Positions 6,524-19,281 of a stretch of DNA of 36,962 bases are shown here, one piece after another. The stretch is from FCB group bacterium (GTDB taxonomy: Bacteria > Fidelibacterota > Marinisomatia > SCGC-AAA003-L08 > JACNLC01). The stretch is taken from positions 1-36,962 of the forward strand of contig JAADGM010000100.1 in NCBI GenBank assembly GCA_013152375.1, read 5' to 3'. The translations under genes were made by a program, and so were the position numbers. Positions within the stretch are counted from its first letter, which is position 1. Each line of letters begins with the position of its first letter. The notes below the pieces were generated by a model. The model worked only from the letters and a program-made list of their open reading frames with translations. It searched no databases and was not told the DNA's origin.

Positions 6524-8644
6524 ATGTCTGTTGAGACTTTTTATTATGACAACAAAATTGTAAAGAATTTTACCTATGCCACCATCCTCTGGGGAGTTGT
6601 CGGCATGCTGGTTGGTCTATGGATCGCCATGGAGCTCGCCTGGCCGGAATTGAATTTCGGTATTGCCCACATAACCTTCAGCCGGCTCAGACCTCTCCAC
6701 ACCAACGCCGTCATTTTCGCCTTTGTCGGCAATGGGTTCTTCCTGGGTGCCTATTATTCTCTGCAGAGGTTGTGTAAAACCCGCATGTTCAGTGACCTGC
6801 TGAGCAAAATCCATTTTTGGGGCTGGCAGCTGATCATCGTCTCGGCCGCATTGACCCTGCCCCTTGGGATCACTACCGGAAAAGAATATGCCGAGCTCGA
6901 ATGGCCGATTGATATCGCTATTGCAGTTATCTGGGTAATTTTCGGGATCAATATGATCGGAACCCTCCTCAAACGTCGTGAAAAACACCTGTACGTTTCC
7001 ATCTGGTTTTACCTGGCTTCCTTTGTCGCAGTGGCCTTGCTGCATATCGGAAATTCAATTGAAATACCCGTTTCATTTCTCAAAAGTTATCCCGTTTATG
7101 CCGGCGTACAGGATGCCCTTGTCCAGTGGTGGTACGGGCATAACGCAGTGGCATTTTTTCTCACAACGCCCTATCTGGGACTGATGTATTATTTTCTGCC
7201 CAAAGCTGCAAACCGGCCGGTTTATTCGTACCGCCTGTCCATTGTCCATTTCTGGTCGCTGATTTTCATCTACATCTGGGCCGGTCCTCACCATTTGCTC
7301 TATACGGCCCTTCCGGATTGGGCGCAATCTCTCGGAATGGTTTTTTCACTAATGCTCATCGCCCCTTCCTGGGGAGGAATGCTCAACGGTCTGCTCACCC
7401 TCAGGGGTGCCTGGGACAGGGTCCGTCAGGATCCCATTCTGAAATTCATGGTGGTGGCCGTGACAGCCTATGGGATGTCCACTTTTGAAGGCCCCATGAT
7501 GTCCATCAAAAGCATCAATTCACTATCGCACTATACTGACTGGACGATTGCTCACGTTCACATCGGTGCGTTGGGCTGGAACGGACTCCTCACCTTCGGG
7601 ATCCTCTACTGGCTGGTTCCCCGAATATTTAACACAAAATTGTATTCCGTTAAACAGGCGAATACACATTTCTGGCTGGGGACCCTGGGGATGATCTTCT
7701 ATGCGATTCCCCTTTACGTTGCCGGGATCACACAGGGTCTGATGTGGAAACAGTTTACACCGGAAGGTTTTCTGCAGTATCCTATTTTCCTGGAAACGGT
7801 CGTCCAAATCGTCCCCATGTACATGATCCGGGTTTTCGGAGGTACTTTATATTTTACAGGGTTGTTTTTTATGCTGAACAATCTCATCCGAACAATAAAA
7901 TCAGGAGAGCTCATCGCCGACGAAGAGGCTCAGGCCCCGCCGCTGGCCTCTGCAGCTTCAGCGGGTACCGAGTCAAAGCACTGGCATGACTGGATTGAAA
8001 GCCGGCCAATCCAGTTAACGCTGTTGGCCACCGTTCTGATTGCAATTGGCGGGTTGGTTGAGATTATTCCCATGTATGTCGTAAAAAGCAATGTTGTTAC
8101 AATTCCCAGTGTAAAACCCTACACACCCCTGGAGCTGCAGGGTCGGGATATATATGTGGCGGAGGGCTGTTATGTGTGCCACTCACAGATGATACGACCG
8201 TTCAGGGATGAAACGGTGCGATACGGTGAATATTCCAAAGCCGGAGAATTCGTCTATGATCATCCCTTCCAATGGGGTTCCAAGAGAACCGGTCCGGATC
8301 TGCACCGCATCGGCAGAAAATATCCTGACGCGTGGCATTATAATCACATGCTGAATCCCGGGTCTATTTCACCAGGGACGCTCATGCCGCCTTTCCCCTG
8401 GCTCATCAGCGAAGACCTGGATATAGAAAGTACGCCGGCCAAGATCCGGGCCATGCAGAAACTGGGAGTCCCCTATCCGGAGGGCTATGCTGGAATCGCG
8501 AATGAAGATCTTCGGAAGCAGGCGGAGGCAATTGCAGCTAATCTTAAAGAACAGGATATCCCTGAGGCCGTCTGGAATAAAAAGATAATTGCCCTCATCG
8601 CCTACCTGCAGAGGTTGGGGACTGATATCAAAACCGGATTTTAG
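6524..8644 (+). CDS. ccoNO: Fused cbb3 oxidase subunits I and II (CcoN-CcoO)
   Basis: This is the catalytic core of the cbb3 terminal oxidase, reducing oxygen to water and pumping protons at the inner membrane. It has 706 aa. Residues 1-465 form the 12-helix CcoN part, with low-spin haem b ligands H59 and H346, high-spin haem ligand H344, CuB ligands H206, H256 and H257, and the conserved E323. After a charged linker (about 462-490), one helix (about 497-520) and a periplasmic domain form CcoO, with CYVCH (549-553) binding haem c and M621 in MPPFPW as its likely sixth ligand. Separate genes are usual in Proteobacteria; fused forms are known in other phyla. ATG lies 2 nt after ccoS. Confidence 0.96.
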   Translation: MSVETFYYDNKIVKNFTYATILWGVVGMLVGLWIAMELAWPELNFGIAHITFSRLRPLHTNAVIFAFVGNGFFLGAYYSLQRLCKTRMFSDLLSKIHFWGWQLIIVSAALTLPLGITTGKEYAELEWPIDIAIAVIWVIFGINMIGTLLKRREKHLYVSIWFYLASFVAVALLHIGNSIEIPVSFLKSYPVYAGVQDALVQWWYGHNAVAFFLTTPYLGLMYYFLPKAANRPVYSYRLSIVHFWSLIFIYIWAGPHHLLYTALPDWAQSLGMVFSLMLIAPSWGGMLNGLLTLRGAWDRVRQDPILKFMVVAVTAYGMSTFEGPMMSIKSINSLSHYTDWTIAHVHIGALGWNGLLTFGILYWLVPRIFNTKLYSVKQANTHFWLGTLGMIFYAIPLYVAGITQGLMWKQFTPEGFLQYPIFLETVVQIVPMYMIRVFGGTLYFTGLFFMLNNLIRTIKSGELIADEEAQAPPLASAASAGTESKHWHDWIESRPIQLTLLATVLIAIGGLVEIIPMYVVKSNVVTIPSVKPYTPLELQGRDIYVAEGCYVCHSQMIRPFRDETVRYGEYSKAGEFVYDHPFQWGSKRTGPDLHRIGRKYPDAWHYNHMLNPGSISPGTLMPPFPWLISEDLDIESTPAKIRAMQKLGVPYPEGYAGIANEDLRKQAEAIAANLKEQDIPEAVWNKKIIALIAYLQRLGTDIKTGF

Positions 8645-8654
8645 GAGAAAGTCA

Positions 8655-8837
8655 ATGTTCAGAGTCTTATTTTCAGGGAATTCGGATGTGACCTTCTTTG
8701 CACTGTTTGGTCTGTTCCTGTTTTTACTTTTTTTTCTCGGGGTCACCCTTTGGGCTATTTTCGGCAAAAAGCAATACATGACGAAAATGGCAAACCTGCC
8801 CCTGGAACCCTTACATTACAAAGATAAAACTGATTAG
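8655..8837 (+). CDS. ccoQ: CcoQ-like small cbb3 subunit
   Basis: A 60-aa protein has a single membrane helix (about 14-39), followed by AIFGKKQYM and a short polar tail. It sits in the classic CcoQ position between CcoO and CcoP. CcoQ stabilises the CcoP association with the core in some bacteria. ATG 8655 is chosen because AGGAGA lies at 8643-8648, overlapping the ccoNO stop codon. A longer frame upstream (from 8589) would run through the end of ccoNO and lacks a ribosome site. Sequence conservation of CcoQ is low, so the name rests mainly on size, topology and place. Confidence 0.8.
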   Translation: MFRVLFSGNSDVTFFALFGLFLFLLFFLGVTLWAIFGKKQYMTKMANLPLEPLHYKDKTD

Positions 8838-8846
8838 GATAGAGAT

Positions 8847-9620
8847 ATGTCAAAGATAAAAGATCAAGTCATTGCCGGACATAATTACGACGGCATTCAG
8901 GAACTGGACAATGATCTGCCCTCCTGGTGGGTGAAGTTGTTTTATACGACAATCGTGATTGCCGTGGTCTATATGTTCTACTATCACTTCCTCGGTCTGG
9001 GGCTGACATCATCGGAACGTTACCTCAAGGCCACCGATCCAAACTGGACAAAAGCTTCCCGTTCAAACACAACCTTTTCGTACAGTTCGCCCTATTCCGG
9101 TACCGCCGGGGAAATTACACCGGCGCTATTGAAAAAACTCGGAGGCTTCATCGGAGAGGATGTGCCCTTTGAAGTCTTAATTCGCGAAGCCAAGCGACGG
9201 GCAAACGCAGATCAGTTGGCCGTGCTGAATAATGATTTTCCCGATGCCAGTCTTATCATCGCCCCCCGGCAGACGGAAGCATCAGCCTCGTTATTTGCCA
9301 ATATTGAAGCCTTTACAGATGACCATAGTCTGGCTGAAGGAAAAGCCGTGTTTGCACAGCACTGTGCCGTGTGTCATGGCCCTAACGGAGAGGGAAAAAT
9401 CGGACCCAACTTCTGTGACGAGTACTGGATACATGGCGGAACCATTGAGGATATTGTCCGAACCATCACCCTGGGAGTCCCGGCAAAGGGAATGATCTCG
9501 TGGCAGTCCACACTTCCGCCCGATCAAATCCTCAAGGTCGCCAGTTTTATTCAGACCCTGCCGGATACGGACCCACCCAATCAAAAAGCACCTCAGGGTG
9601 AAAAGATCACCGTTGATTGA
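8847..9620 (+). CDS. ccoP: Cytochrome cbb3 oxidase subunit CcoP, one haem c
   Basis: This is a membrane-anchored c-type cytochrome passing electrons to CcoO/CcoN. It has 257 aa. The N-terminal DGIQELDNDLPSWW (15-28) ahead of the single helix (about 30-52) is the CcoP signature. Only one haem motif is present, CAVCH (173-177), with M216 the likely axial ligand. Proteobacterial CcoP has two. Residues 60-150, where the first haem domain would lie, contain no CxxCH and are of unknown role. Mono-haem CcoP occurs in several non-proteobacterial lineages. The gene follows ccoQ by 9 nt and overlaps ccoG. Confidence 0.92.
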   Translation: MSKIKDQVIAGHNYDGIQELDNDLPSWWVKLFYTTIVIAVVYMFYYHFLGLGLTSSERYLKATDPNWTKASRSNTTFSYSSPYSGTAGEITPALLKKLGGFIGEDVPFEVLIREAKRRANADQLAVLNNDFPDASLIIAPRQTEASASLFANIEAFTDDHSLAEGKAVFAQHCAVCHGPNGEGKIGPNFCDEYWIHGGTIEDIVRTITLGVPAKGMISWQSTLPPDQILKVASFIQTLPDTDPPNQKAPQGEKITVD

Positions 9621-11068
9621 CCGATATCTTCCACTGGAAATTTCATGAACTCCAGCTTGCCGAGTGTGTGTTGACTGCCCGAAACAGCAGCGAATCATTC
9701 CGGGATAAAATCTCGACGATAGATGACAAGGGCGGCCGTGCCTGGATCTACCCTAAGAAGCCCAGCGGTCGGTTTTATACCTACCGTTCTCTGCTAAGTT
9801 ACGTCCTGCTGATTTTGTTATTTGCCGGACCTTTTATGACAATTAACGGCAGACCCATCCTGTTACTGAATTTTCTGGAGCGGAAATTCTTCATTTTCGG
9901 CGTCGCCTTCTGGCCGCAGGATTTTCATCTATTGGTTCTGACACTCATCATCGGCATTGTCTTCATCATCCTGTTTACGGTTGTTTTCGGCCGCCTGTTC
10001 TGCGGGTGGGTCTGTCCGCAAACTATCTTCATGGAGATGGTCTTTCGAAAAATTGAATATTTCATCGAAGGGGATGCTGCTCAGCAGCGAAAACTGAGCA
10101 GGGCTCCCATGTCCGCACTGAAATTTTTCAAACGGGCTGTTAAATATACAATTTTTTTTGCGATTTCTTTCGTTATTGGCAATACGTTTCTGGCCTATAT
10201 TATCGGCAAAGACGAATTGTTCAGGATTATTACCGACCCCCCGTCACAGCATATCGGCGGACTGGTTGGAATCCTATTTTTCAGTACACTTTTTTTTGGT
10301 GTGTTCGCGTGGTTCAGGGAACAAGCCTGTGTGCTGGTTTGTCCCTACGGCCGTTTACAGGGTGTCCTCCTCGACCCGAATTCAATCGTCGTGCATTATG
10401 ACTTCAAACGCGGTGAACCCCGGGGAGCCGGGAAGCGCTCCGAAAATGATCACCGTGGCGACTGCATTGACTGTCATCAGTGTGTCGAAGTCTGCCCAAC
10501 CGGCATTGATATCAGGAACGGGACGCAGCTGGAATGTGTCAACTGCACCGCCTGCATCGATGCCTGCGACAGTATCATGACCAAAATTAACAAACCAAAG
10601 GGTTTGATCAAATATTCATCTTATAATGCGATCGAGAACGGGGTCAGCAAGATCATGACACCAAAAACGCTGGGATACATGGCGATACTTGTTTTGCTCA
10701 CCGCTGTACTTACCGTAATGCTGATGAATCGCCAATTGGTTGAAACCAGCATTTTACGAACACCGGGCGTTATGTATCAAATTGAAGGTGACGGGAAAAT
10801 CTCAAATCTCTATAATATCAAGGTGGTCAACAAAACCTTTGAAAAGCAAAATATCAGCCTTGAACTGCTGTCCCCAAAGACCGGCTCAGTTTCACTGGTT
10901 GGTGATCTCACAATTGCTGAAGATGACCTGGGGGAAACCGCCTTTTTCGTTGAGCTGCCCCAATCGACCATTACCTCGCAAATGAACCAGATCATTCTGG
11001 GGGTCCTTGCCAACGGGGAACTCATCGAAACAATCAAAACAAATTTTTTAGGACCGGAAAAGCAATGA
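9617..11068 (+). CDS. ccoG: CcoG/FixG, polyferredoxin for cbb3 assembly
   Basis: This is a membrane Fe-S protein of 483 aa, implicated in Cu(II) to Cu(I) reduction for cbb3 maturation. The visible order is RAWIYPKKPSGRFY (about 41-54, typical for the family), membrane helices, FCGWVCP (C129, C133), CVLVCPYGR (C238, C242), a ferredoxin motif at C283/C286/C289/C293 and a second at C307/C310/C313/C317. A late helix (about 354-370) leads to an Ig-like periplasmic FixG C-terminal domain. TTG 9617 overlaps the ccoP stop. The first 25 residues are not family-like, so GTG 9668 or TTG 9671 are alternatives. The 3' end overlaps ccoH as ATGA. Confidence 0.92.
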   Translation: MTDIFHWKFHELQLAECVLTARNSSESFRDKISTIDDKGGRAWIYPKKPSGRFYTYRSLLSYVLLILLFAGPFMTINGRPILLLNFLERKFFIFGVAFWPQDFHLLVLTLIIGIVFIILFTVVFGRLFCGWVCPQTIFMEMVFRKIEYFIEGDAAQQRKLSRAPMSALKFFKRAVKYTIFFAISFVIGNTFLAYIIGKDELFRIITDPPSQHIGGLVGILFFSTLFFGVFAWFREQACVLVCPYGRLQGVLLDPNSIVVHYDFKRGEPRGAGKRSENDHRGDCIDCHQCVEVCPTGIDIRNGTQLECVNCTACIDACDSIMTKINKPKGLIKYSSYNAIENGVSKIMTPKTLGYMAILVLLTAVLTVMLMNRQLVETSILRTPGVMYQIEGDGKISNLYNIKVVNKTFEKQNISLELLSPKTGSVSLVGDLTIAEDDLGETAFFVELPQSTITSQMNQIILGVLANGELIETIKTNFLGPEKQ

Positions 11069-11517
11069 GATTTCGCTTTAGTTTTTTCGGCGGTTTAATG
11101 ACCGCTATCGTATTATTTGTAGGTTTCCTGTTGGGTATTTTAATTTTTGCCATGCTTCAGCCACAAAATCTTGTTTCCAAAAATTATTACAATGAAGAAC
11201 TGGCCTATCAGCAGCATATTGATAAAGTCCAGAGATTGAAAGGGTTACAGAATGAACCGCGTTTTATTTACAGAAAAAACGGCCAACTGTCAGTTCAGTT
11301 TCCCTTCGAATGGCTCGAACAGTCAATTTCCGGAACGCTGGTGCTCTTCAGGCCCTCTGATTCCAGATTGGACCGGACCCTGGATCTGAACATCGGCAAG
11401 GACGGTTTACAGCTCATCGATGTCATCGGGCTTCAGCCGGGACTTTGGAAAATCAAGCTGGATTGGCAAATGGACGGAACATCCTATTACACTGAAAGCT
11501 CACTGGTCATCGGCTGA
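11065..11517 (+). CDS. ccoH: CcoH/FixH family protein
   Basis: This 150-aa protein has one N-terminal membrane helix (about 8-31) and a periplasmic domain beginning NLVSKNYYNEELAYQQ, the characteristic FixH motif. CcoH is required for stable cbb3 assembly and stays associated with the oxidase in some species. It overlaps ccoG by 4 nt (ATGA) and is the last cbb3 gene. About 65 nt separate its stop from actA, so the oxidase and complex III genes could share one transcript. Confidence 0.88.
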   Translation: MRFRFSFFGGLMTAIVLFVGFLLGILIFAMLQPQNLVSKNYYNEELAYQQHIDKVQRLKGLQNEPRFIYRKNGQLSVQFPFEWLEQSISGTLVLFRPSDSRLDRTLDLNIGKDGLQLIDVIGLQPGLWKIKLDWQMDGTSYYTESSLVIG

Positions 11518-11570
11518 TGAGATTAATTGGATTATATCGTCATGTCGGCAAATCATAAAAACATAAGTGA

Positions 11571-11575
11571 AGGAG
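11571..11575 (+). promoter_or_regulatory. Ribosome site deciding an ACG start for actA
   Basis: A strong AGGAG (in GAAGGAG) stands at 11571-11575. The only codon at ideal distance is ACG at 11583 (7-nt spacer), which is in frame with ActA. No ATG, GTG or TTG in that frame is near this site, and the later TTG at 11622 has no ribosome site of its own. Confidence 0.6.
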
Positions 11576-11582
11576 CATAAAG

Positions 11583-12230
11583 ACGGCACAGTTATTTCCA
11601 AAATGGACCAATAAATTACCGTTGATCGCGGGGATCTTCGTCTTGTTATTTTTCGCGGGCATCACGGGATTTTTCTGGTATTATGCCTCACCAAAATTTA
11701 CCGATGTGGGTTACATGCCGGAGCAGCCCGTCCCTTACAGCCATAAACTGCACGCTGGGGATCTGGGGCTTGACTGCCGCTATTGTCATACGGCAGTTGA
11801 GGAATCCGCAAAGGCCGCAATTCCCCCCACCCAGACCTGCATGAACTGTCATGTACTGATCAAACCCGAAAGTGAAAAACTGGCACTCATCAGGGAAAGT
11901 TATCGTGATGACAAGGCCCTCCAGTGGGTCCGCGTTCATAAAGTCCCGGATTATGCCTTTTTCAATCACAGTGCCCATGTAAACCGGGGGGTGGGATGCT
12001 CAACATGCCACGGTCGAATCGATGAAATGGTCGAGGTTGCCCAGGCAGAACCTCTGAGCATGGGTTGGTGTCTCGATTGTCATAGAAACCCGGCACCCTT
12101 TCTCAGACCCCTGGACGAGATCACGAAGATGGATTGGAAACCTTCTGAAAATCAATTAGCTTACGGAAAGCTTGCAATGATACAACGCAATATATCACCC
12201 CCCACCGATTGTACGGGGTGCCACCGATGA
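11583..12230 (+). CDS. actA: ActA, pentahaem cytochrome c of alternative complex III
   Basis: This is the periplasmic multihaem subunit of the quinol:electron-acceptor oxidoreductase ACIII. From ACG 11583 it has 215 aa: a short basic cytoplasmic start (AQLFPKWTNKLP), one helix (about 16-34), and five CxxCH haem motifs at 65-69, 86-90, 139-143, 163-167 and 210-214. Five haems is the family count. The next canonical start, TTG 11622, would remove the N-terminal segment right up to the helix. The first residues resemble those usual for ActA, which supports the upstream start. The gene ends in ATGA shared with actB. Confidence 0.92.
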   Translation, partial: TAQLFPKWTNKLPLIAGIFVLLFFAGITGFFWYYASPKFTDVGYMPEQPVPYSHKLHAGDLGLDCRYCHTAVEESAKAAIPPTQTCMNCHVLIKPESEKLALIRESYRDDKALQWVRVHKVPDYAFFNHSAHVNRGVGCSTCHGRIDEMVEVAQAEPLSMGWCLDCHRNPAPFLRPLDEITKMDWKPSENQLAYGKLAMIQRNISPPTDCTGCHR

Positions 12231-15226
12231 AACAAGATCTTAAACCCATGGCTGGAAAATCTTACTGGCGAAGTCTGGATCAGAAAGCGGATGACCCTGA
12301 ATTCAGGAAATTTGTGGAGTCGGAATTTCCCGAGGGGACCTTCGATCTGGCAAGGGGGATCAGTCGTAAAAAGTTTTTAAGTTTGATGGGGGCTTCTATG
12401 GCGCTGGCCGGACTGGCAGGTTGTCGCCGACCCGTTGAGAAGATCATTCCCTATGCCATAGCACCTGAAGAGATCGTCCCCGGTGTTCCCCGATATTTTG
12501 CTACGACCATGCCCTTCGGATTGAATGCCTTTGGATTGCTCGTCGAGAGCCATGAAGGACGGCCGACTAAAATCGAAGGTAACAAGGAACACCCCTCGTC
12601 TTTAGGAGCTTCCAATGCTTTTGTACAGGCGGAGATCCTCAATTTATACGACCCCGATCGCTCGAAATTTGTCCGGCATAACGGAGAACAGAGTTCCTGG
12701 CCGGAATTTGTCGTAAACTGGAAAAATGAACGGGAAAAATATCTGAAGTCAAAGGGAGAAGGGCTGGCGGTTCTGTCCGTTGAGTTTGCTTCCCCCACCC
12801 TTGCCCGGCTCAGATCAGAATTTTTAAGTGCATTCCCAAAAGCGAAATGGGTGACCCATGCTCCCGTATCAGATGAAATGATCTATGACGGACTCAAACT
12901 CGCGGCCGGGAAATACGCCCATCCCGTGCCGGCTTTGGAAAAAGCCCGGGTTATCCTGACACTGGATGCAGATTTCATGAAAACCGGCTCCAACGATATC
13001 GTGAACTCCCGGGGATTTGCCGACTCCCGGAGGGTCAAATCAGAAAATGATACGATGAGTCGCCTCTACGCGGTTGAAAGCGGATTTTCACTCACCGGTG
13101 CAATGGCCGATCACCGGCTGCCTCTCCAGTCCCGACTGATGAGTAAATTCACGGCTGCCCTTGCTTTGGAGCTGCGCTCCCGGGGAGTTGAAATTCCCGG
13201 ACTGAAAGCTCTCACCAAAAAATCGACAGAAGGCTTTGATCAAAAATGGCTTTCAGCGCTGGCAACGGATCTGATCACCCACCGTGGCTACGGACTGATC
13301 CTGGCAGGACCCGGTCAGCCGCCGGAGCTGCATGCCCTGGTCTTTGCACTGAATGATGCTCTGGGAAATATTGGCCGGACAATCCGTTACTACGAAATTG
13401 AGGATGCTGTGCTTTCATCGGTTCCGGACCTGCAGGATCTGGTGGAGAGGATGAACTCCGGCGCAGTGTCAACGCTCTTGCTGCTCGGCGGAAACCCGGT
13501 TTATGATGCACCGGCCGACCTCGACTTCAGCAGAGCACTTCAGAACGTCCCCAACAGCATACAGGTTGCAAACCATCCTGATGAAACTTCCACGCGGGTG
13601 AACTGGCATATTCCCAAAGCCCATTTTCTTGAGCAATGGGGGGATGCCAGGGCTTTAGACGGTACGGCCAGTGTGATCCAGCCTCTCATTGCACCGCTCT
13701 TCGGCGCCAAAAGCGATGTAGAAGTTCTCTCCGCTTTCTTGTCAGGCGAAGATCGTCCCGGATATGATCTTGTGCGCGAAACCTGGTCACATATTTTGAA
13801 ACAGAAAGACTTTGACAAACGCTGGCAGACGGTTCTTCATGATGGGTTGCTGCCGGATTCCGCCGCAAGGGTTATTCAACTGAAAATATCTGCGAACTCT
13901 CTGCAGAAAGCACTGTCCTCTTTGGTTATCGCTGAAAAAGAGGAAACAGAGCTTATCTTTTCACCCTCGCCGGCCGTATTTGACGGCCGCTATGCAAACA
14001 ATGGCTGGCTGCAGGAAAATCCGCACCCGATCACTAAACTCACCTGGGATAATGCTGCCGTAATTGGAACGGCAACTGCCAGGCGTATGCAGGTTCAAAA
14101 CCATGATGTAATTCAAGTGAAGACTGAATCGGCCTCCCTGCAGCTTCCGGTCTGGATCGTGCCGGGGATTGCGGAAAACACGATCTGCATCGATCTGGGA
14201 TACGGACGTAAGTTCCCCGGACGGATCGGCGGCGGGCTTGGCCGGAATGCCTATGCCCTGAGAACCACTGCCAGTCTGGGTTTCGCAACCGGAGTTAAAA
14301 TTTCCAAAACCGGGCGAAAATACCGTCTGGTATCAACTCAGGACCATCATGGTCTGGATGTGGAAAAACTCGCTTCCGATGAGATCGAAAAACGCTTACC
14401 GGTCCTCATCCGCGAAGCAACTCTCGAGGAATACCATGAAGAGCCTGAATTTGCAAAGGAAATGGTGGAGCATCCTCCTTTGAAATCCCTGTGGGAGGAT
14501 CGGAAATACGACGAGGGATATCAGTGGGGCATGACCATCGACCTGAATGTCTGTAATGGCTGCAATGCCTGCACCATTGCCTGCCAGAGCGAGAATAATA
14601 TTCCGATTGTAGGCAAGAAAGAAGTGGGGCATGGCCGTGAAATGCACTGGATCCGAATTGACCGCTATTTTTCCGGTGAAGAGGAAAACCCTGAAATGGT
14701 CTTTCAGCCGATAGCCTGCGCCCAGTGCGAAAATGCCCCCTGTGAACAGGTTTGTCCGGTGGCCGCAACAAACCATGATGCAGAAGGTCTGAATACAATG
14801 GCCTACAACCGCTGCATCGGGACACGTTACTGTGCCAATAATTGTCCTTATAAGGTCAGGCGTTTCAATTTTTTCAATTTCACGAAAGAACTCCCGGAAA
14901 TAGTGCAGATGGCCATGAATCCGGATGTCACCGTGCGGTTCAGGGGCGTCATGGAAAAATGTACTTTCTGCGTACAGCGGATCCATCGCAGCAAGCTGGA
15001 TGCCAAAAACAGCCACCGTCAGTTAAGGGACGGGGATATCCAGACAGCCTGCGAACAAACCTGCCCCACGGACGCCATCGTTTTCGGAGATATCAATGAT
15101 GTCAACAGCAGAGTGTCTCAAATCAAAAAACAGGATCGGGACTATGCCCTGCTGGGAGAATTGAATATCAAGCCGAGGACCACTTATCAGGCTAAATTGA
15201 GAAATCCAAATCCTGAATTAACCTAA
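12227..15226 (+). CDS. actB: ActB, iron-sulfur subunit of alternative complex III
   Basis: This is a 999-aa periplasmic subunit fusing a molybdopterin-oxidoreductase-like domain (about 70-740, no cofactor expected in ACIII) to a ferredoxin domain. Cys clusters start with C776/C779/C782/C786, then C831/C834/C839/C843, CIGTRYCANNCP, CTFC and CEQTCP, enough for three [4Fe-4S] and one [3Fe-4S] as known for ActB. A Tat-like SRKKFL (46-51) and hydrophobic stretch precede a lipobox-like LAGC (C66), so export with lipid anchoring is possible. ATG 12227 overlaps the actA stop. A TTG at 12209 would add six residues inside the actA end. Confidence 0.94.
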   Translation: MKQDLKPMAGKSYWRSLDQKADDPEFRKFVESEFPEGTFDLARGISRKKFLSLMGASMALAGLAGCRRPVEKIIPYAIAPEEIVPGVPRYFATTMPFGLNAFGLLVESHEGRPTKIEGNKEHPSSLGASNAFVQAEILNLYDPDRSKFVRHNGEQSSWPEFVVNWKNEREKYLKSKGEGLAVLSVEFASPTLARLRSEFLSAFPKAKWVTHAPVSDEMIYDGLKLAAGKYAHPVPALEKARVILTLDADFMKTGSNDIVNSRGFADSRRVKSENDTMSRLYAVESGFSLTGAMADHRLPLQSRLMSKFTAALALELRSRGVEIPGLKALTKKSTEGFDQKWLSALATDLITHRGYGLILAGPGQPPELHALVFALNDALGNIGRTIRYYEIEDAVLSSVPDLQDLVERMNSGAVSTLLLLGGNPVYDAPADLDFSRALQNVPNSIQVANHPDETSTRVNWHIPKAHFLEQWGDARALDGTASVIQPLIAPLFGAKSDVEVLSAFLSGEDRPGYDLVRETWSHILKQKDFDKRWQTVLHDGLLPDSAARVIQLKISANSLQKALSSLVIAEKEETELIFSPSPAVFDGRYANNGWLQENPHPITKLTWDNAAVIGTATARRMQVQNHDVIQVKTESASLQLPVWIVPGIAENTICIDLGYGRKFPGRIGGGLGRNAYALRTTASLGFATGVKISKTGRKYRLVSTQDHHGLDVEKLASDEIEKRLPVLIREATLEEYHEEPEFAKEMVEHPPLKSLWEDRKYDEGYQWGMTIDLNVCNGCNACTIACQSENNIPIVGKKEVGHGREMHWIRIDRYFSGEEENPEMVFQPIACAQCENAPCEQVCPVAATNHDAEGLNTMAYNRCIGTRYCANNCPYKVRRFNFFNFTKELPEIVQMAMNPDVTVRFRGVMEKCTFCVQRIHRSKLDAKNSHRQLRDGDIQTACEQTCPTDAIVFGDINDVNSRVSQIKKQDRDYALLGELNIKPRTTYQAKLRNPNPELT

Positions 15227-15245
15227 CTAAAAAAAGTCAGTTTAC

Positions 15246-16679
15246 GTGAATTTAATAAAACCAAAAAAACAACCTTCGCCTGATGCCACGGTCTTCAGCG
15301 GGTCCGCACCTCTGCCGGAACCGTTGATCACCGGCAAGCAGACCTTCGCCTCCATTACGGAACGGATCAGTGCAATTGTAGAAGGTAAGCCGCCCAAAGG
15401 CTGGATGATCGCCTTCTCATTCTCGGTTTCAATACTGCTGATGCTCCTGGGGACAATCGGCTATCTTGCCGATGAGGGGATCGGTATCTGGGGACTGAAC
15501 AATCCTGTGGGTTGGGGCTGGGCGATTGTGAATTTCGTGTTCTGGGTCGGTATCGGCCATGCCGGTACGCTCATTTCGGCCGTACTGCATCTTTTCCGTC
15601 AGAAATGGAGAACTTCCATTAATCGTTTTGCCGAGGCCATGACCCTGTTTGCAGTAATTTGTGCCCTGGTGTTTCCCACCATCCATGTAGGCCGTATCTG
15701 GATGCTGCATTATGTATTTCCCATTCCTAACCAGATGGAAATGTGGCCCAATTTCCGAAGTCCCCTGCTGTGGGATGTATTTGCCGTCTCCATCTATTTT
15801 GCGGTCTCCATCCTGTTCTGGTTCACGGGATTGATCCCTGATTTGGCAACCCTCAGAGACCGGGCAAAGACCCGGGCCCGGAAGTTTATTTTCGGTGCGC
15901 TGGCTCTGGGCTGGCGGGGGAGCAATCGTCACTGGCAGCATTATGAGCTGGCATATCTGGTTCTGGCCGGACTGGCAACTCCTCTCGTGCTGTCGGTTCA
16001 CTCGGTGGTCAGTACGGACTTTGCCACGAGCATCCTGCCGGGCTGGCATACAACGATCTTCCCGCCCTATTTCGTCGCCGGCGCTATCTTTTCGGGTTTC
16101 GCCATGGTGATGACACTGGGGATTATTGCCCGGGAGGTCTTCGGATTAAAAGATTTTATCACGCTGAAGCATCTGGATAAAATGTCCAAGATCATGCTGG
16201 TAACCGGTTCAATGGTGGGCTATTCCTATGCAACAGAATTTTTTATTGCCTGGTACGGAGGCAACGGCTATGAAATGTTTGCCTTCATCAACCGGGCGTT
16301 CGGGCCGTACGCCTGGGCCTATTGGACCATGATCTCCTGTAATGTCATCATCCCTCAGCTTTTCTGGTTTAAGAAAATTCGTTCCAATGTAAAAATTCTG
16401 TTTGTTCTGTCAATTCTGGTGAATGTGGGGATGTGGTTTGAGCGGTTTGTGATCGTAGTCTCTTCGTTGTCGCGGGACTTTCTTCCTTCAGCCTGGGCTT
16501 ATTATTCTCCAACCATTTTCGACATCATGACGTTTATCGGGACATTCGGGCTTTTCTTCACCTTTTTCCTGCTGTTTCTGAGATTTCTGCCCATGGTCTC
16601 GATGACTGAAGTTAAGGGTGTACTCCCGGCGGCAGATCCCCATTACAAAGCTCCGGAGGAGGTAAAAGAAAATGACTAA
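15246..16679 (+). CDS. actC: ActC, NrfD-like quinone-binding subunit of ACIII
   Basis: This 477-aa polytopic membrane protein belongs to the NrfD/PsrC family, about ten helices. It contains conserved stretches such as [17 protein letters not shown] (about 97-113) and FPTIHVGR. ActC is the principal menaquinol oxidation subunit, passing electrons to the ActB Fe-S chain. GTG 15246 is the start, with an N-terminal polar segment of about 50 residues before the first helix and a weak ribosome site. It overlaps actD by 8 nt. Confidence 0.93.
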
Positions 16680-17211
16680 ACAGACTCTGTATGGATTTCT
16701 GGCGGAATTTTCCACTCCCGGGGACCTGCTGCAGGCCGCTGAAAAAGTTCGGGACGCCGGTTATCAAAAATTTGACTGCCATACGCCTTTCCCGGTTCAC
16801 GGTCTGGATGATGCCATGGGAATGCCCCGCACAAAACTGGGGTATGTGATCGGCCTGTTTGCGCTGCTGGGGGCTATTGGCGGGTTCTGGCTGCAGGCCT
16901 GGACCAGCACGGTGGGTTATCCCATGGTGATTGCGGGAAAACCCTATTTCAGCTGGCAGGCTTTTATCATCGTCACTTTCGGTCTGATGGTGCTGGCCGG
17001 TGCGTTTTCCGCTCTGTTCGGGATGTTTCATTTTAACCGCTTGCCCAGATTACATCACCCCCTCTTCAACTCTGAGAATTTCAAACGGGCTACCGACGAT
17101 GGCTTTTTTATCAGTATTGAAGCACAGGATACCCGCTTCAATCCTGCCGAAACGAGGACTTTTTTAACAAAAATCGGTGCTAAAAATGTGGAGGCTATCA
17201 GCAGCGAATGA
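16672..17211 (+). CDS. actD: ActD, small membrane subunit of ACIII
   Basis: This 179-aa protein of the DUF3341/ActD family has an N-terminal ferredoxin-fold-like domain beginning [18 protein letters not shown], two membrane helices (about 59-78 and 96-122) and a C-terminal soluble tail. [13 protein letters not shown] (34-46) is the family signature. It bridges ActC and the other subunits and has no cofactor. A good site (GGAGG) precedes ATG 16672 inside the actC end. Its stop overlaps actE as ATGA. Confidence 0.92.
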
Positions 17212-17819
17212 AACTTAAAACACTCCTAATTGCACTCGGCACAGGCTTTGGGCTCCTGCTGTTAAACTGTCAGGGAACACCTTCGCGGAATGCTCCAATC
17301 CATTTGAATCCCAATATGGATACTCAAAAACGGTACGATCCACAGGCAGCCAGCGGTTTCTTTATCGATGGCCGGACAATGCGGCCCCCTGTCCCCGGAA
17401 CCGTTGCCCGGGACGGACTGCGTCTCGATGATGCCTTTTACCGGGGTGAAGATGGCAAAGGTCAGGAAATTAAATACATCCCTGTTGACCTTGATGAAAA
17501 CCTGTTAGCCCGGGGAGAGGAGAGATACAATATCTACTGTTCACCCTGTCACAGTGAGCTCGGCGATGGAAAGGGGATTGTCATGCAGTATAATTTTCCC
17601 ATTCCACCCCCTTCCTTCCACACGGAAAAAGTGCGTGATTTCACTGACGGATACTTGTTTAAGGTGATTACAAACGGTGTTCGGAATATGCCTGCCTACC
17701 GTCATCAGATCAAAGTGCGGGACCGCTGGGCCATTGTCGCTTATATTCGGGCGCTTCAGCTCAGTCAGAACGCCTCAGCGGAAGATGTCCCCTTAACTGA
17801 ATTAAATGGACTGAAATGA
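17208..17819 (+). CDS. actE: ActE, mono-haem cytochrome c lipoprotein of ACIII
   Basis: A 203-aa exported protein starts with a basic MKLK, a hydrophobic core and the lipobox LLNC with C21 as the lipidated residue. The cytochrome c domain carries CSPCH (111-115), with later Met residues (for example in RNMPAYRHQ) as possible axial ligand. Family knowledge places ActE at the electron exit of ACIII, handing electrons to the terminal oxidase. Here the likely acceptor is the cbb3 oxidase encoded just upstream. It overlaps actD by 4 nt and is 4 nt from actF. Confidence 0.93.
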   Translation: MKLKTLLIALGTGFGLLLLNCQGTPSRNAPIHLNPNMDTQKRYDPQAASGFFIDGRTMRPPVPGTVARDGLRLDDAFYRGEDGKGQEIKYIPVDLDENLLARGEERYNIYCSPCHSELGDGKGIVMQYNFPIPPPSFHTEKVRDFTDGYLFKVITNGVRNMPAYRHQIKVRDRWAIVAYIRALQLSQNASAEDVPLTELNGLK

Positions 17820-17823
17820 GTGT

Positions 17824-18990
17824 ATGAATATTGATCTAAAAACATATCTGCTGACTGATACCGCCAGTACCCGAACCCGGTTACTGGCCCTGGGAGTCCT
17901 GGGATTGGTGCTCAGTTTTTTTGGCTACTTTACAAATCCCGCTCAATTTTATCATTCCTGGCTGGTGGCTTTTTCATTTTGGGCTACTCTGGGTCTGGGA
18001 GCTTTTTTCTTTGTCCTGATGCACCATGTCACCGGTGCCTTCTGGAGCACCGTTATACGTAGAATCGTTGAGTCCGTAATGGGTGCTCTGCCGCTTCTTC
18101 TGATCTTCTTCATCCCGATTATTTTTGGGCTGCACACGCTGTATCACTGGAGCGACCCCGGAGAAGATCCGCTCCTGATCTGGAAAAGTCCCTACCTGAA
18201 TACAACTTTCTTCGGTATCAGGACAGTCCTTTATTTTATCGTCTGGTATTTGATCATCAGCAAACTCTATAAACTGTCGGTCAATCAGACCGGGGAAGAA
18301 GATCTCAGACGCATGCGCCGGGTCAGCGCTGCCGGGACCGTCATTTTCGCCCTCACATTTACCTTTGCCTCTTTCGATTGGCTTATGTCCACGGATGCAC
18401 ACTGGTATTCTACAATTTACGGCGTTTATATTTTCGGCGGTGCTTATCTCTCGGCCATTATTTTTGTTGTATTATTTGCGCTTTTCCTGCAGCATAACGG
18501 AATTTTACAAAAAGAGATCACCTCGGAACATTATCACGATCTTGGCAAACTTGCGTTCGGCTTTGTAATCTTTTGGGCCTATATCGCCGGCAGTCAGTAT
18601 TTTCTCATCTGGTACGGCAACATCCCCGAAGAAACCGTCTGGTTCGCACATCGCTGGGTGGGGTCGTGGAAAACGGCGAGCCTCGTCCTCATTGCCGGGC
18701 ATTTCATAATTCCCTTTATCGTGCTGATTTTCCACGCCGCAAAACGAAACACCGGCATATTTAAAGCTGTTGCCCTCCTGTTGCTTGTCATGCACTGGGT
18801 CGACCTGTATTGGAATATCATGCCGTCTTTGTACCCTGACGGCGTCCGTATTTCCTGGATGGATTTCAGTACGATGGCCGGTATTGGCGGAATCTTCCTG
18901 TGGAAAATTTGGGATAATCTGACCCGGCATCCCGTATTGCCAACGGCTGATCCCTATCTTATGCAGTCCATAAACTTCAATAAACATTGA
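17824..18990 (+). CDS. actF: ActF, second NrfD-like membrane subunit of ACIII
   Basis: This 388-aa polytopic membrane protein is shorter than ActC but from the same NrfD/PsrC superfamily, about ten helices. The family motif FGLHTLYHWSDP lies in an early loop (about 101-112), followed by KSPYLN. ActF sits beside ActC in the complex and is proposed to participate in proton translocation. ATG 17824 directly follows the actE stop. The following small gene starts 9 nt after its TGA. Confidence 0.92.
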   Translation: MNIDLKTYLLTDTASTRTRLLALGVLGLVLSFFGYFTNPAQFYHSWLVAFSFWATLGLGAFFFVLMHHVTGAFWSTVIRRIVESVMGALPLLLIFFIPIIFGLHTLYHWSDPGEDPLLIWKSPYLNTTFFGIRTVLYFIVWYLIISKLYKLSVNQTGEEDLRRMRRVSAAGTVIFALTFTFASFDWLMSTDAHWYSTIYGVYIFGGAYLSAIIFVVLFALFLQHNGILQKEITSEHYHDLGKLAFGFVIFWAYIAGSQYFLIWYGNIPEETVWFAHRWVGSWKTASLVLIAGHFIIPFIVLIFHAAKRNTGIFKAVALLLLVMHWVDLYWNIMPSLYPDGVRISWMDFSTMAGIGGIFLWKIWDNLTRHPVLPTADPYLMQSINFNKH

Positions 18991-18999
18991 TACAAGCCT

Positions 19000-19281
19000 A
19001 TGAATAATGCCTCAATTTTCAATTATAAGAAATTAGTTCCGCTGGCAATCCTCATCATCGTGCTGGTGAGTCTCGGAGTCATCGGAAATCAGTACTCTAA
19101 ACGTGCCTACGATTTTTACGGGGATGGCATACCTACTGAAAATTCTGAAAAACTCTCTGCTCTGAGACTGCACGAAAAACAAATTTTGACAAGTTACGGT
19201 GTGATAGATGCTGAAAAGGGCATTTACAGAATTCCCATTTCCGTGGCTATGAAACGCTATCTGCAGAAGTCTGAAAAGTAA
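19000..19281 (+). CDS. Small membrane-anchored protein ending the ACIII operon
   Basis: A 93-aa protein has one helix (about 12-29), a short linker and a C-terminal motif LTSYGVIDAEKGIYRIPISV (63-82). The pattern 'Leu-x-x-Tyr-Gly-x-x-Asp ... Arg-Ile-Pro-Ile-x-x-Ala-Met' is one I recall in small proteins next to cytochrome oxidase or SCO genes in other bacteria; its function is unknown to me. Biochemically studied ACIII preparations contain an extra small subunit (called ActG or ActH), and this gene is a candidate by position only. It is 9 nt from actF, so almost surely in the same operon. Confidence 0.8.
   Translation: MNNASIFNYKKLVPLAILIIVLVSLGVIGNQYSKRAYDFYGDGIPTENSEKLSALRLHEKQILTSYGVIDAEKGIYRIPISVAMKRYLQKSEK

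Follow-up and report, generated by a model that had tools for sequence, protein, structure and literature searches.

Alternative complex III (ACIII) is a bacterial respiratory enzyme, a menaquinol:cytochrome c/HiPIP oxidoreductase. Its subunit ActG reportedly stabilises the complex, as set out for Chloroflexus by Xin et al. in their 2024 structure paper. ActG of Rhodothermus marinus was found in the purified complex by peptide mass fingerprinting and was predicted to have one transmembrane helix; the map of the complex contained no ActG density, and ActG is the only subunit missing from some act clusters (PMC5928083). An ACIII–caa3 supercomplex has been proposed for the same organism (PMC5928083). 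In Chloroflexus, actG closes the actABCDEFG cluster, and a second cluster has SCO and cox genes after actG (PMC3150298). ActG has also been called Chloroflexus-specific and absent from R. marinus (PMC9316378), a claim that is contradicted by PMC5928083 and, as judged from sequence, by the family profile described below.

A short gene at the end of the act operon

In the stretch of 36,962 nucleotides analysed here (the window), a complete act operon, encoding ActA through ActF, is followed on the same strand by an open reading frame for a protein of 93 residues, with its ATG at 19000 and its stop codon at 19279–19281 (Table 1). The first-pass annotation had described one helix and a YGVID...YRIPI...AM motif in this product and a gap of 9 nt after actF, all of which sequence and hydropathy confirm. 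The single hydrophobic segment is N-terminal (residues ~12–30, Kyte–Doolittle mean 2.6), and the C-terminal stretch, TSYGVIDAEKGIYRIPISVAMKRYL, places the motif at Tyr66, Gly67, Val68, Ile69 and Asp70, followed by Tyr76, Arg77, Ile78, Pro79 and Ile80 and then Ala83 and Met84. The protein has no cysteine, a single histidine and no cofactor motif. Its N-terminus is short and is without the GYEKRD motif that many relatives carry. Upstream, the cbb3 oxidase genes (fused ccoNO, ccoP, ccoG and ccoH) and the ACIII genes form a single co-directional run from 6524 to 18990; the same cbb3–act order occurs in one related genome (G057, locus L291), but without actG.

Table 1. Features of the act region, in window coordinates
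Feature	Position	Strand	Description
cbb3 oxidase genes, upstream of act	6524..11517	+	fused ccoNO, small ccoQ-like ORF, ccoP, ccoG, ccoH
actA	11622..12230	+	pentahaem cytochrome c, five CXXCH
actB	12209..15226	+	1005-aa iron-sulfur/molybdopterin-like subunit
actC	15246..16679	+	NrfD-like quinol-binding subunit
actD	16672..17211	+	gene order conserved in relatives
actE	17208..17819	+	monohaem cytochrome c, one CXXCH
actF	17824..18990	+	NrfD-like membrane subunit; best PDB match 6f0k_F ActF, E=1.7e-96
actG	19000..19281	+	93-aa ActG (very probable), single-pass ACIII membrane subunit; divergent
Codons, predicted membrane helix core (residues 12–30; AlphaFold helix 9–42)	19033..19089	+	hydropathy, AlphaFold
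Codons, conserved C-terminal motif, residues 62–85	19183..19254	+	I-L-T-S-Y-G-V-I-D-A-E-K-G-I-Y-R-I-P-I-S-V-A-M-K; predicted beta-hairpin, then amphipathic helix

Relationship to ActG

Searched as a single sequence, the protein gave no match in Pfam, one weak and meaningless match in NCBIfam and nothing meaningful in the PDB, and Pfam and NCBIfam searches of 42 relatives returned only weak, inconsistent matches. A family profile of 42 members, with the 93-residue protein as its first row, matched PDB chain 8k9e_G, deposited as ActG of Chloroflexus ACIII, at the top of 177,635 sequences (E=1.5e-5); the alignment is confined to ~34 residues at the C-terminal motif. This chain, which occurs as chain G in entries 8k9e, 8k9f, 8x2j and 9ilt, was the sole convincing PDB match of the profile. 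With a Rhodothermus copy as single query the same chain was found weakly, but over most of the length (residues 30–115, E=0.026). When members from the phylum of the window genome were left out, the profile picked the 93-residue frame alone among 687 window ORFs (E=1.3e-19), and leave-out profiles recovered the Rhodothermales copies at 4.2e-19 or better. A Foldseek search of the AlphaFold model against the PDB gave no match, a result that is possible for a short, mostly helical model and that neither supports nor refutes the relationship.

The protein thus belongs to one family with the Chloroflexus ActG chain, and its gene has the actG position seen in Rhodothermus. Very probably it is ActG, the product of the seventh gene of the ACIII operon and an accessory single-pass subunit; it would then be a divergent copy of a known part. 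The first-pass annotation had called it uncharacterised, which holds for the sequence libraries, where Pfam and NCBIfam have no model, but not for the ACIII literature and the PDB, where the family is named ActG. Because these libraries lack a matching model, annotation that relies on them tends to overlook ActG, and the assignment removes one 'hypothetical protein'.

ActG of Chloroflexus aurantiacus (Caur_0627, PMC3150298) is likewise small and encoded by the last act gene, and it shares the C-terminal motif, there LNSYG...IPIDRAM. However, it has 112 residues, its similarity is limited to this motif, and it belongs to a photosynthetic ACIII, whereas the window's ACIII genes lie beside those of a cbb3 oxidase. 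The gene for Rhodothermus marinus ActG also lies directly after actF and its product has one transmembrane helix; in the Rhodothermus sp. locus L033 the motif reads YGVVDAERGIYRIPIDRAM. That protein is longer (~135 residues, with longer N- and C-terminal tails), and in Rhodothermus SCO and coxBA come after actG, whereas the window genome is without these. R. marinus itself lies outside the loci surveyed, and the match to its actG is by position, the single helix and close relatives. R. marinus ActH (Rmar_1979) is likewise an accessory ACIII subunit without cofactors, but it is a periplasmic three-helix bundle (PMC5928083), and no sequence relationship to the 93-residue protein was seen.

Distribution and gene neighbourhood

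A search with aligned ActF sequences, headed by R. marinus ActF as extracted from the PDB alignment, yielded 80 loci in named genomes. A family member lies directly 3' of actF in 73 of them, including the Rhodothermus loci L033 and L034, and seven have none there. Loci with the family come from Rhodothermus, Balneolales, Zixibacteria, KSB1, Calditrichota, Neomarinimicrobiota, Verrucomicrobia, Acidobacteria, Gemmatimonadetes and others, and whole-genome searches of relatives added further copies, each directly after actF. The first-pass proposal of an extra ACIII subunit is therefore right as to the complex, given the 8k9e_G match and these positions, but the subunit is the already known ActG and not a new one.

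Of the 71 named loci long enough to show the gene after actG, 65 have SCO there and six do not, and coxB comes next in the loci read further. The flanks read in Acidobacteriota and Bacteroidota show actF–actG–SCO–coxB with few exceptions, all still respiratory. This order, which is also that of the second Chloroflexus cluster (PMC3150298), recurs in many phyla, and the common arrangement actF–actG–SCO–coxBA explains why the motif had correctly been described as widespread near oxidase genes. Wherever the neighbourhood of a clear homologue was read, ACIII and/or SCO–cox genes adjoin it; homologues without respiratory neighbours, which the first-pass annotation had named as grounds for abandoning its reading, did not turn up there. 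Motif-only matches in a second group of Acidobacteriota were considered as a separate oxidase protein; those read sit between actF and SCO, with one exception cut by a contig end, and the idea was dropped.

The motif and profile unite the Rhodothermus and Chloroflexus ActG with unnamed proteins of many phyla, at least Neomarinimicrobiota, Zixibacteria, KSB1/Calditrichota, Acidobacteriota, Verrucomicrobia and Gemmatimonadetes and, within Bacteroidota, Balneolales, Rhodothermales and Ignavibacterium.

ActG follows ACIII and not one type of oxidase

The frequent SCO and coxB neighbours would also suit a maturation factor of A-family oxidases, a companion of SCO that would insert copper A or haem a and adjoin ACIII by chance. 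Among 245 genomes of the window's own phylum, ActF was found in 71 and clear ActG (E up to 1.7e-5) in 36, all 36 with ActF (P=1.2e-23, a strength that is overstated since genomes were treated as independent and many are close relatives). The gene is adjacent to actF in 35 of the 36; in the other (G082) the two lie on different contigs, each near the contig start. An apparent absence of ActF from the sister genome G001 was discounted, as the contig ends inside actA.

Searches for SCO (PF02630) and A-family CoxA (TIGR02891) gave no hit in the window genome (G000, completeness 89%) or in the related genomes G087 (91%) and G088 (99%). In G000 cbb3 is the only oxidase found and actG follows actF; G087 and G088 also have cbb3 and keep ActG with ACIII. 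Conversely, no actG follows actF in one family of genomes that have both ActF and CoxA. Presence in cbb3-only genomes and absence from genomes with CoxA and ActF together indicate that ActG accompanies ACIII and does not depend on a particular type of oxidase; it is optional, because some ACIII operons have none. The cbb3-only pattern is consistent with an ACIII subunit and speaks against an assembly factor for the SCO/A-type oxidase. The earlier suggestion of a haem/oxidase assembly factor thus finds no support in G000, G087 and G088 or in several genomes that have CoxA and ActF but no ActG. With many such genomes, the six named loci without SCO after actG and the presence of ActG in purified ACIII (PMC5928083), a maturation factor is highly improbable. 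That ActG follows ACIII rather than A-type oxidase narrows the search for its function.

A second, divergent type of ActF, scoring ~300 bits where the other reaches ~500–650, is present in other families of the same phylum (G050, G056, G137–G139, G149, G170, G171 and others), and clear ActG is missing in nearly all of these genomes. In G087 (L295:1410-4438), actB is seemingly present as two overlapping ORFs, either a real split or possibly a sequence error.

Conservation, predicted structure and proposed role

Across 74 aligned members, Pro79 is invariant, Leu63, Asp70, Tyr76, Ile78 and Ala83 are conserved in >90%, and position 66 is Tyr or Phe in 97%, giving the family motif L-x2-[YF]-x-V-x-D-x3-G-x-Y-[RQH]-I-P-[IV]-[DE]-x-A-[MI]. 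The AlphaFold model of the 93-residue protein (mean pLDDT 86) has a long helix (9–42), a second helix (46–64), a hairpin formed by the motif (67–70/75–77) and a last helix (80–92). The positive-inside signal is weak: the N-terminal flank is richer in Lys and Arg in 46 of 74 members, and the count is 2 against 2 in the 93-residue protein. An inside N-terminus is nevertheless our inference, and one Rhodohalobacter copy, whose N-terminal extension matches HTH_Tnp_1, is consistent with it.

Most likely, ActG is a non-catalytic structural subunit that stabilises ACIII, with a small periplasmic foot. Residues ~9–42 would form a helix anchoring the protein beside the membrane subunits, with the N-terminus inside, and the C-terminal helix–hairpin–helix, ending with the invariant I-P and the amphipathic A-M helix, may bind the periplasmic face of the complex. 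Since the protein lacks a cofactor motif, a direct part in electron transfer would be unlikely.

ActG might instead be an assembly chaperone that co-purifies with ACIII and is no true subunit, in line with its detection by mass spectrometry in R. marinus despite the map without ActG density (PMC5928083) and with its absence from some act operons. An ActG chain is nonetheless present in four Chloroflexus ACIII entries of the PDB, and we consider a chaperone very unlikely.

The location of the gene, which in many phyla has act genes on one side and cox genes on the other, the proposed ACIII–caa3 supercomplex (PMC5928083) and the large N-terminal extensions of some Balneolaceae copies would suit a linker through which ACIII docks onto an oxidase, in place of a stabiliser of ACIII itself. 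Yet ActG is kept beside ACIII in G087 and G088, where cbb3 alone is present, on a different contig, and ActG is resolved in the photosynthetic ACIII of Chloroflexus. That structure was reportedly solved without an oxidase, which also counts against a linker, and we regard this role as unlikely. It is slightly less probable still that ActG is a general docking piece joining ACIII to different oxidases, caa3 in most lineages and cbb3 here; if so, its C-terminal motif would mark a conserved supercomplex interface.

Two Rhodothermales copies (L035:9235-10053 and L036:9141-9965) have long N-terminal extensions that resemble, by eye, a fibronectin-like beta domain; a Pfam search of these extensions gave no match. 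The long N-terminal extensions of Balneolaceae copies (L084:9108-9632, L112:9139-9696 and others) match a transposase-type helix-turn-helix domain, HTH_Tnp_1, which would be an odd, DNA-binding-like addition to a respiratory subunit; the match passes the Pfam cut-off in L084 (E=1.3e-6) but falls short of it in L112.
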